In this document: in pieces, positions 475 to 58,211 of the stretch
How positions within the stretch are numbered: position 1 is the stretch's first letter
Layout: every line of letters starts with the position of its first letter
Assembly (NCBI RefSeq): GCF_026616205.1
Contig: NZ_JANHGR010000001.1
Span: 62,001-126,000 of the forward strand
Length of the DNA: 64,000 bases
Source of the DNA: Halolamina litorea
GTDB lineage: Archaea > Halobacteriota > Halobacteria > Halobacteriales > Haloferacaceae
Direction: 5' to 3'
Notes under the pieces: model-generated
The model's input: only the letters and a program-made list of their open reading frames with translations
Told to the model about the DNA's origin: nothing
Database searches by the model: none
Translations under genes and position numbers: made by a program

Positions 475-1587
475 TCAGCCCAGCCGCGCGTCGACCAACT
501 CCCGAACCCGGCGGTGGAACCGATCCGCACCGAACCGATCCGGGGAGAGCCGCGGCGTCGCCCCGCTGTCGACGGCCGCCGCGATTCGGTCGACGGCCGT
601 CGGCACCGAGTCGAACAGCCGATCGGCCGCGCCGTCGACCACGTCCCGCTGCCCGCCCGAATCGTGCGCGAACGCCACCATCCCCGCCGCGACGTACTCC
701 GCCAGGGCCATCCCGAAGTGCTCGCCGTGTTTGGTGTTGAGGCCGTAGCGGTGCCCACCCAGTAGTTCCTCCAGCCGGGCTCTGGACACGTCGGTGTGCA
801 GCGTGACGTACTCCCGGGCCGCGACGGCGTCCTCGACCCGCTCGCAGTACGAACGGTACGCTGCAGCCGTCGACCCGACGAGATGCAGGTGGAGGTCGAC
901 CCCGCGCTCCCGGACGCCGTCGACGACCCGGACGGCGTCGAGCGTGCGGTTGTCGGGTGCGATCCGGCCGACGGTCACGACCCCGGGCTCGCGCTCCCCC
1001 CACGGCTTCCCCGGGATCGGATCGACTGGCGGATGGAGGACCTCCGGCTCCCGGCCGTACCGAGCATCGACGTGTGCGGCGGTGTAGCTGCTGTTCGCGA
1101 TCAGCGCCGCGTCAGCCGGGAGCTCCCGGTTGGCCAGTCCGGCGACCCGGGTCCAGAGGCCGTTCAGCGGCTCGTCGTGGGCGCCGTCCGGGCCCGGAAC
1201 GTCGGTGTTGAACTGCGGGAAGTGGACGTACTGCACCGACGGCAGCGGGAGGTCGAACTCGTTTGCGGTGCTGACCGCAACGTCGAACGGTCCGGCGTGT
1301 CGGCGGAACCACCGCGTCAGCAGCGCGCTCCGGAGTGGAAGCTGTGGGCCGAACCGGTCGTCGGCCCGGGAGAACAGTCGAGCGAGGCGCTCCCCGGCCG
1401 GCGGCTGCCGGACGGGAACGGCCGCGTCCGTGCCGAACATCTCGTTCAGCGTCGACAGCGGCGTCGCCGAAATCGTGAACAGCGTCACCTCGTGGTGCTC
1501 CTGCAGCGCCGAACAGACGTGGGCACAGACGGCGTCGGCGCCGCCGCGGAAGTCGAGCGTGTTGTGGAGCACTGCGACGCGAGCCAT
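475..1587 (-). CDS. GT4-type glycosyltransferase
   Basis: The product is 370 residues with two Rossmann-like halves (GT-B fold). The N-terminal glycine loop is FRGGADAV (residues 13-20) and the C-terminal half carries the EX7E signature EHFGMALAE (E289 and E297), which in the GT4 family contacts the donor nucleotide sugar. The ATG at 1585-1587 is preferred over an in-frame start 24 codons upstream, because MARVAVLHN begins the first beta strand and a TATA-like TTTAG lies about 22-26 bases upstream. The gene is divergent from the CDP-alcohol phosphatidyltransferase/pterin operon and shares its 143-base control region, so it probably works on the same product. Donor and acceptor are unknown. 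Confidence 0.85.
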   Translation of the reverse strand: MARVAVLHNTLDFRGGADAVCAHVCSALQEHHEVTLFTISATPLSTLNEMFGTDAAVPVRQPPAGERLARLFSRADDRFGPQLPLRSALLTRWFRRHAGPFDVAVSTANEFDLPLPSVQYVHFPQFNTDVPGPDGAHDEPLNGLWTRVAGLANRELPADAALIANSSYTAAHVDARYGREPEVLHPPVDPIPGKPWGEREPGVVTVGRIAPDNRTLDAVRVVDGVRERGVDLHLHLVGSTAAAYRSYCERVEDAVAAREYVTLHTDVSRARLEELLGGHRYGLNTKHGEHFGMALAEYVAAGMVAFAHDSGGQRDVVDGAADRLFDSVPTAVDRIAAAVDSGATPRLSPDRFGADRFHRRVRELVDARLG

Positions 1588-24890: not shown

Positions 24891-26231
24891 ATGACTACGC
24901 TCCACGTCGTGAACGGCCGCGTGCTTCACCCCGACCACTCGATCACCGAGTCCGACCTGCTGATCGACCAAGCGAGCGGGACGATCGAGGAGATCGGCGC
25001 TGTCGACGCCGAGGACGCTGACGAGCGAAGCTCGTCTGCCAATCGGACGCAGTCCGATGACGCCGACGAGACCCTCGACGCCGAGGGCGGCCTCGTCATC
25101 CCCGGCCTGATCAACGCCCACGGCCACGCCGCGATGACCCTCCTGCGGGGCTACGCCGACGACAAGCCCCTCGAGGCGTGGCTGCAGGAGGACATCTGGC
25201 CCGCCGAGGGCGAACTCACCGCCGAGGACATCCGCGTCGGCACCGAACTGGCGGCGGTGGAGATGATCCGCTCGGGCACGACCGGCTTCGCGGACATGTA
25301 CTTCGAGGAGCCACACGTCGCCGGCGTCGTCGACGAGTCCGGCCTGCGTGCGTTGCTCGGCCACGGCTTCGTCTCCGTCGGCAAGCCCGAGGCCGACGCC
25401 CGTGCGGACATGGAGACGAGCGTCAACTTCGCCGCGCAGTACGACAAGGTCGGCGGCGACCGCATCTCGACTGCCGTGATGCCCCACTCGCTGACGACCG
25501 TGAACGAGGCGCTGCTGCGCGAGGCCGTCGAGCGCGCCCGCGAGGCAGACGTGCCGGTCCACATCCACGCCAACGAGACCGAAGACGAGGTCGACCCCAT
25601 CGTCGCCGAGCGGGGCGTCCGACCCATGGAGTACGCCGAGGACGTGGGCCTGCTGGCGGACGGCGACTTCCTCGCCCACTGTGTGCACGTCGACGACGAC
25701 GAGATCGAACGCCTCGCCGACAGCGACGCCGCGGCGATCCACTGCCCGGCCTCGAACGCGAAGCTGGCGTCCGGAATCGCGCCCGTCCAAGCGATGCTCG
25801 ATGCCGGTGTTTCGGTCGGCCTCGGCACCGACGGCGCCGCCTCGAACAACGACCTCGACATGTTCGACGAGATTCGCGACGCCGCGATGCTGGGCAAACT
25901 CGGCGCCGACGACGCCGCCGCGGTCCCGGCGAGCGCGGCGGTCCGCATGGCCACCGAGGGCTCGGCGGCCGCGCTGGGCTTCGACGCCGGCCGGATCGAG
26001 GTGGGCGCGAAGGCCGACCTCGCGGTTGTCGACCTCGACGCCGCTCACCTGACGCCGGGCCACGACCTGGTGAGCCACCTCGCCTACGCCGCCTCGGGGA
26101 GCGACGTGCGCCACACGGTCTGTGACGGCGATGTGCTCATGGAGGACCGCGAGATCCTGACGCTGGACGAGGCGGCCGTGACCGAGCGTGCCGAGGAACA
26201 GGCCGCCGACCTGATCGACCGGGTGGCCTGA
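24891..26231 (+). CDS. Amidohydrolase: MTA/SAH deaminase type
   Basis: The 446-residue product is an amidohydrolase of the 5-methylthioadenosine/S-adenosylhomocysteine deaminase group: INAHGHAAMTLLRG (metal HxH), SGTTGFADMYF, PVHIHANETEDEVD, FLAHCVHV, and LGTDGAASNNDLDMF near the end. It would deaminate MTA, SAH or a related adenosine to the inosyl form. Residues about 44-56 (ERSSSANRTQSDD) are an unusual insert in the small N-terminal beta domain and are encoded by two palindromes (separate entry). It lies 8 bases before an MFS gene and 1.8 kb from ahcY. Guanine/cytosine deaminase activity is less likely but possible. Confidence 0.85.
   Translation: MTTLHVVNGRVLHPDHSITESDLLIDQASGTIEEIGAVDAEDADERSSSANRTQSDDADETLDAEGGLVIPGLINAHGHAAMTLLRGYADDKPLEAWLQEDIWPAEGELTAEDIRVGTELAAVEMIRSGTTGFADMYFEEPHVAGVVDESGLRALLGHGFVSVGKPEADARADMETSVNFAAQYDKVGGDRISTAVMPHSLTTVNEALLREAVERAREADVPVHIHANETEDEVDPIVAERGVRPMEYAEDVGLLADGDFLAHCVHVDDDEIERLADSDAAAIHCPASNAKLASGIAPVQAMLDAGVSVGLGTDGAASNNDLDMFDEIRDAAMLGKLGADDAAAVPASAAVRMATEGSAAALGFDAGRIEVGAKADLAVVDLDAAHLTPGHDLVSHLAYAASGSDVRHTVCDGDVLMEDREILTLDEAAVTERAEEQAADLIDRVA
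25020..25058 (+). repeat. In-frame double palindrome inside the deaminase gene
   Basis: Two hairpins sit in tandem: GACGAGC-GAA-GCTCGTC (25020-25036) and ATCGGAC-GCA-GTCCGAT (25042-25058), each 7-base arms with a 3-base loop, separated by TGCCA. They encode a low-complexity Ser/Arg/Asp stretch that looks inserted. The same plan is seen in intergenic DNA at 42184-42234. Confidence 0.6.
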
Positions 26232-42131: not shown

Positions 42132-42178
42132 TCGACCTTTTGCTGCGGGCCCCCAGAGGGGCCCTGGCAAAAGCTCGA
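42132..42178. repeat. Long cruciform-forming inverted repeat
   Basis: TCGACCTTTTGC (42132-42143) pairs with GCAAAAGCTCGA (42167-42178) at 11 of 12 positions, and inside it GGGCCCC pairs with GGGGCCC around a CAGA loop. It flanks the end of the radical SAM gene and the cdc6 promoter. Confidence 0.55.
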
Positions 42179-42183
42179 TCATC

Positions 42184-42234
42184 ACCAGAAGCCTTCGGCT
42201 TCTGGTTAGCAGCCAGAAATCTCCGATTTCTGGC
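42184..42234. repeat. Double palindrome beside cdc6
   Basis: ACCAGAAGCC-TTC-GGCTTCTGGT (42184-42206), a 5-base spacer TAGCA, and GCCAGAAATC-TCC-GATTTCTGGC (42212-42234), all with perfect 10-base arms and 3-base loops. The layout is the same as the in-frame double palindrome at 25020-25058 though the arms differ. Confidence 0.65.
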
Positions 42235-57891: not shown

Positions 57892-58211
57892 GCACTGAGA
57901 TAGCCGTTATCGGTAGCCCGGAGTTCACGACCGGGTTCCGTCTCGCCGGCGTCCGGAAGTTCGAGGACGTTCCCGAGGCGGAGAAGGACGAGCGACTCGA
58001 CGACGCCGTCGAGACGACGCTCGAAGACGAGGGAGTCGGCATCATCGTGATGCACGACGACGACCTCGACCACCTCTCGCGGGGGACCCGCGAGGCAGTC
58101 GAGACGAGCGTCGAACCGACGCTCGTGACACTCGGCGGTGGCGCTGGCAGCGGCGGGCTGCGCGACCAGATCAAACGAGCCATCGGGATCGACCTGATGG
58201 ATGAGGACTAA
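57888..58211 (+). CDS. atpF: A-type ATP synthase subunit F
   Basis: The 107-residue product has a Rossmann-like alpha/beta fold (EIAVIGSPEFTTGFRLAGV, GVGIIVMHDDDLDHL) of central stalk subunit F. It overlaps atpC by 4 bases and is 3 bases before atpA. Confidence 0.92.
   Translation: MSTEIAVIGSPEFTTGFRLAGVRKFEDVPEAEKDERLDDAVETTLEDEGVGIIVMHDDDLDHLSRGTREAVETSVEPTLVTLGGGAGSGGLRDQIKRAIGIDLMDED

Follow-up and report, generated by a model that had tools for sequence, protein, structure and literature searches.

Short double-hairpin inserts in a Halolamina deaminase gene and across Halobacteria: probable non-autonomous insertion elements carried in frame

The DNA analysed here (the window) is a stretch of 64,000 nucleotides from Halolamina litorea, and the question it raises is how codons 44-56 of a deaminase gene (DERSSSANRTQSD; ORF 24891-26231) came to be made of two adjacent palindromes, and whether these form a mobile element. 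The first-pass annotation had described positions 25020-25058 as two 7-base-arm hairpins with 3-base loops and a TGCCA spacer, set in frame in the host ORF, and arms, loops and codons were all found as claimed, both hairpins being perfect. The features of the locus are as follows.

24891..26231, plus strand: host gene, amidohydrolase of the MTA/SAH-deaminase type, 446 aa (from Pfam PF01979 and the closest PDB chain)
25014..25022, plus strand: left target-duplication copy, GACGCTGAC (8 of 9 bases equal to the right copy)
25020..25036, plus strand: hairpin A, GACGAGC-GAA-GCTCGTC (perfect arms)
25037..25041, plus strand: spacer TGCCA (read from the sequence)
25042..25058, plus strand: hairpin B, ATCGGAC-GCA-GTCCGAT (perfect arms)
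25059..25067, plus strand: right target-duplication copy, GACGCCGAC (8 of 9 bases equal to the left copy)

The closest PDB chain to the host protein is 4f0r, an MTA/SAH deaminase, and the PF01979 match covers residues 68-415, which places the insert N-terminal to the conserved catalytic domain. An AlphaFold model of the deaminase, obtained with 13 sequences, had a mean pLDDT of 46 and was not used as evidence. It had been proposed that relatives be compared for presence or absence of residues 44-56, and that an insert shared by all homologues in non-palindromic codons would refute a mobile element; the insert is missing from all six congeneric orthologues (83-85% identical), and this objection falls. 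By alignment the net gain at the deaminase is 39 bp, not 45 bp, and hairpin A shares its outer bases with the left duplication copy, of which they form the last three. Nor does the deaminase copy stand alone in sequence: near copies occur elsewhere in the same genome and genus, among them a second copy in the rhodanese gene of the same genome, in the same reading frame (DERRSSANRTQSDD).

Searching 170 genomes of the same family with a 38-nt pattern (at most 3 mismatches) returned 18 close copies in eight genomes, most of them inside open frames of different proteins, and none with the reversed pattern as control. At a threshold of E<=1e-5, a covariance model matched 222 of 292 sampled Halobacteria genomes, representing 64 of 77 genera, with per-genome copy counts that are lower bounds. 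In a phylum-wide search, 23 of 33 genomes inside the class Halobacteria were matched and none of about 164 outside it, with the caveat that other classes may differ in G+C. The best class-wide matches share frame and peptide type (e.g. DEQSSSGSRTQSG), and the same core (GAGC-NNN-GCTC, TGSCA, CGGAC-GCA-GTCCG) recurs in unrelated genes and genera. No match was obtained for the class consensus among viral contigs and phage records, for the peptide consensus in the PDB, or for the window in a search of Rfam families.

Chance occurrence in GC-rich DNA had been named as a second ground for refutation. A count of perfect double hairpins (arms of at least 7, loop of 3) with a gap of 4-7 nt gave 72 across 800 kb of congeneric DNA and 0 in the third-order Markov control, with the maximum at a gap of 5 nt (39 against 0); all other gaps together gave 3 against 2 in the control. 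These stretches were picked to include model hits and the count is thereby enriched; the unbiased evidence of excess over chance is the 18-copy pattern search together with the absence of the insert from the six congeneric orthologues. With 72 against 0 in the enriched stretches and 18 against 0 in the pattern search, random expectation is not equally high.

Across copies, the element core consists of two adjacent perfect hairpins in the order A-TGSCA-B with stems of 7-10 bp and loops of 3 nt, and usually spans 39 bp; longer-armed forms measure 45 or 51 bp. The hairpin scans demanded 3-nt loops, and the 18 pattern-search copies show 3-nt loops too. In these 18 copies, which were selected by sequence and not by pairing, 100% of stem positions pair, all 17 variant stem cells are two-sided and none is one-sided, and sliding the partner lowers pairing to 18-34%; the stem changes are compensatory. 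For 49 distinct model hits the corresponding values were 98.2% pairing and 131 two-sided cells, in an alignment that had been fitted to the structure, and a set of 27 sequences was selected mostly for perfect arms and is not independent evidence. In a test for MITE-like ends, with only IS605 sought as parent transposon, each hairpin was self-complementary, and neither end of the element was an inverted copy of the other.

For 20 host genes, orthologues from sister genomes were aligned by codon to set filled sites against empty ones, and copies are present in one or a few species, with the same site empty in relatives. Mobility is inferred from these empty sites; no insertion event has been caught. 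The same comparison bears on the possibility that the inserts are a functional protein or mRNA motif under selection, inherited vertically and not mobile. One site is indeed filled in several genera (loci L235, L236, L238 and L250), and the constraint on the sense strand might in principle operate at the RNA level; against this, most sites are filled in only one or two species per genus and empty in the others, and copies in unrelated genes are near-identical in DNA, so that we consider vertical inheritance barely tenable. The site shared among four genera is a single position in a conserved protein (...PVAVLY-[insert]-LKRRM...), and in one case the arm sequences differ, which suggests a hot spot or arm replacement after insertion. 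A further copy, at 9297-9335 of L098, lies in a histidine kinase between repeated AVEHG / AVEHA residues (NAVEHGSTGSQTGSDDAVEHA); other haloarchaeal kinases presumably carry similar inserts.

Of 19 single copies with a 39-bp core, 17 showed a net gain of 45 bp, the exceptions being the deaminase and one gene in a poorly conserved region; a 45-bp core gave a net gain of 51 bp. Intergenic copies in genomes G098 and G006, which lie inside larger repeats, were left out of this boundary mapping; those of G098 include seven near-identical double hairpins (L288-L294) within a longer conserved repeat. The flanks carry an imperfect duplication of about 9 bp that resembles GACGTCGAC. When the 6 nt before hairpin A plus its first 3 were compared with the 9 nt after hairpin B, 164 of 216 positions matched, against 141 in permuted data (p=5e-5), and the three stem bases alone also matched the target in the Halolamina host-gene set (p=3.5e-4). 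Independent class-wide loci gave p=0.001 for the nine-base match and only a trend for the stem triple (p=0.075).

This duplication is hard to reconcile with a terminal-only PATE, in which two near-terminal palindromes left over from an IS605-type element have fused and are moved by TnpA. Terminal-only PATEs of 52 bp do occur in Haloquadratum (PMC3119063), and IS605-type genes are present in the genus Halolamina; PATEs and IS605 elements, however, give no target duplication, model hits fall in just 2 of 39 tnpA/tnpB loci without framing them, and the window's genome has no Y1 transposase. We judge such an origin very unlikely.

Many Halolamina copies have a hairpin A whose outermost stem bases are identical to the target, with the reverse complement of those bases in the far arm. 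Clear cases are the TyrRS gene (L101; target GATCCCGAG, stem GAG...CTC), L090 (target GGCACCGGG, stem GGG...CCC), L072 (target GACCGCGAG, stem GAG...CTC) and L094 (stem GTG...CAC). As the edges of hairpin A follow the target in these single cases, the GACGTC that usually precedes it is read as target and not as a fixed tag. Of 24 Halolamina copies, 10 have CGTC before hairpin A, where it tracks the target, and class-wide the sequence before hairpin A is mostly GACAGC. GACGTC also stands between units in intergenic arrays (A-TGCCA-B-GACGTC-A-TGCCA-B) and between the two units of a double insertion in one gene. In a TrmB-like regulator (L252, about 1410-1540, minus strand) the first part is made of three in-frame units in tandem, with a period of 45 bp (VERSSTSNRTQSDDT, AERSPTNDRTQSDDT, AERSPTSNRTQSDDA), which form a protein tail derived from the element.

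Stem edges that often follow the target, and stems that are near-perfect, are also what would be predicted if there were no dedicated element and replication template switching at GNC-rich repeats made double palindromes and flanking duplications de novo, selection retaining the harmless ones; nor has any enzyme been found. A local process of this kind cannot explain why the same core recurs in unrelated genes and genera, and we regard it as an improbable account of the family.

For the analysis of reading frame, coding scores were taken from the flanks only and orientation was assigned by loop sequence. Each of the 34 copies in clear genes sits in sense frame 0 and is 39 or 45 long, whereas among unclear or intergenic copies lengths of 41, 43, 47, 49 and 53 also occur. 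The element is stop-free in the sense frame, where it adds about 15 polar, acidic residues (GRAVY -2.1 and net charge -5, flanks included); read in the codon-aligned antisense direction it would be hydrophobic and basic (GRAVY +1.1, charge +2). A target weight matrix predicted mostly codon-aligned sites with about 36-40% in antisense orientation, and this matrix, being derived from coding targets, leans towards codon alignment. From these data we infer purifying selection on the inserted peptide. Bypassing elements (byp) of yeast mitochondria are a model for inserts that are skipped by the ribosome or removed from RNA, and the hairpins flanked by direct repeats inside genes share their general anatomy. 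Skipping or removal, on the other hand, would need neither lengths divisible by three, as in 34 of 34 coding copies, nor a single stop-free polar sense frame, and intergenic lengths vary; an untranslated insert thus seems to us highly unlikely. Annotated CDSs run unbroken through the copies in ppsA, cobN and an alkaline phosphatase family gene (public annotation). Without proteomics, we infer that the insert is translated as a tolerated linker, and claim no positive function for it.

A second, intergenic double hairpin of the window had been described as similar in plan, and its 10-base arms, 3-base loops and spacer (TAGCA, or TGCTA on the other strand) were confirmed from the letters at 42184-42234.

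42184..42206, minus strand: second hairpin in minus-strand order, 10-bp arms, GAA loop
42207..42211, minus strand: spacer TGCTA
42212..42234, minus strand: first hairpin in minus-strand order, CCAGAAATC core, a genus-wide repeat (weak match to model R2, E=0.035)

Halolamina genomes each contain 1-30 occurrences of the hairpin core of this pair (reversed control 0), and the covariance model links this core only weakly, at that E-value, to the deaminase element. The pair is a member of a related long-armed repeat or subfamily and not the same element as the deaminase copy. The earlier view that the arms differ completely and that structure, not sequence, is conserved holds for the arms of the two window pairs, but not for the rest: within subfamilies sequence is conserved as well. 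Another GC-rich inverted repeat (CTTTTGC...GGGCCCCCAGAGGGGCCCTGGCAAAAG) lies immediately ahead of the intergenic double hairpin, at 42136-42172, and at 58076-58126 two strong hairpins (8- and 10-bp arms) stand 9 nt apart, without the spacer of the deaminase-type family.

The window copy thus belongs, with a probability that we put at about 0.78, to a family of very short, non-autonomous insertion elements that extends across the class and for which the following way of moving is inferred. An unidentified recombinase or nuclease would recognise the element in its hairpin form and join it to GNC-rich target DNA at a staggered cut, the duplication of about 9 bp would be left by gap filling, and copying within the stem (template switching) would keep or restore the perfect palindrome, so that one stem edge comes to match the target. 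Arrays (A-TGCCA-B-GACGTC-A-...) may have arisen through further insertions into duplicated copies of the target or through unequal exchange between such copies, and the frame bias may reflect mostly codon-aligned targets combined with purging of the hydrophobic, basic antisense reading. No mobilising gene was identified among the Y1/RAYT and IS605 candidates examined: the former were rejected because, besides the missing Y1 gene, no model hit framed Y1 genes in relatives, and the latter on the 2 of 39 loci given above. Against our explanation count the imperfection of the duplication, the weak class-wide result for the stem triple and the 39 bp gained at the deaminase. The first-pass suggestion of a small non-autonomous palindromic element inside genes, comparable to those of Rickettsia, is nevertheless supported by the empty sites in 20 genes, the duplication, the compensatory stems, the in-frame copies and the class-wide spread. 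That it represents a new archaeal mechanism, in which hairpin DNA is joined at the target, one stem edge is rebuilt from the target, a duplication of about 9 bp is made and the palindrome spans the junction, yielding a class-wide generator of 15-residue polar linkers, we offer as a tentative idea that may well prove wrong.

No description of archaeal in-frame palindromes or of the insert peptide strings was found in the open-access literature, subscription literature lying outside the search. The papers found report palindromes inserted in frame from bacteria alone (Rickettsia and REP carriers), without a known means of movement. The archaeal set occurs class-wide, its empty sites are precise, its duplication can be measured and one stem edge follows the target, which makes the question of movement directly testable. 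The set also shows one way in which proteins acquire new segments, and it matters for annotation and structure prediction, where such inserts look like unexplained species-specific loops.

Among known systems, the PATEs and SMRs of Haloquadratum are both transposase-free; PATEs carry palindromes and relate to IS605 ends, and SMRs are about 80-110 bp long with terminal inverted repeats, neither giving a target duplication (PMC3119063). The double-hairpin element is likewise a transposase-free mobile repeat of haloarchaea and differs in its duplication of about 9 bp (p=5e-5 and 0.001). With GTAG-REPs and BIMEs it shares dispersed palindromes in alternating arrays, but it lacks the GTAG tag and any RAYT association. 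CGTC-REPs, which include RPE-4, RPE-6 and Neisseria dRS3 and occur in five bacterial phyla, have stems of 8-9 bp, loops of 4-5 nt (PMC3733652), a fixed tag and a CCA tail. They too are paired short hairpins, some inside genes and without a dedicated transposase, and CGTC often stands ahead of hairpin A in Halolamina copies; the archaeal stems, in contrast, are 7-10 bp with 3-nt loops, and CGTC follows the target instead of being a fixed tag. The double-hairpin elements of Allomyces mitochondria, to the extent that PMC7218506 reports them (citing Paquin 2000), are two adjacent hairpins, seemingly mobile by presence/absence, and resemble the archaeal element in forming one mobile unit; they belong to fungal mitochondria, and the account given there reports neither in-frame coding inserts nor target-derived stems. 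Rickettsia palindromic elements (RPEs), reported at about 150 bp, are palindromic repeats lying in frame in unrelated protein genes without a transposase (PMC10969869, PMC3733652). The archaeal element is likewise inserted in frame in unrelated coding genes, and differs as a double hairpin of 39-51 bp with a target duplication of about 9 bp and a single fixed sense frame. It works like RPEs, resembles CGTC-REPs and double-hairpin elements and fits none of them, and stands as an archaeal equivalent of the palindromes that invade Rickettsia genes.
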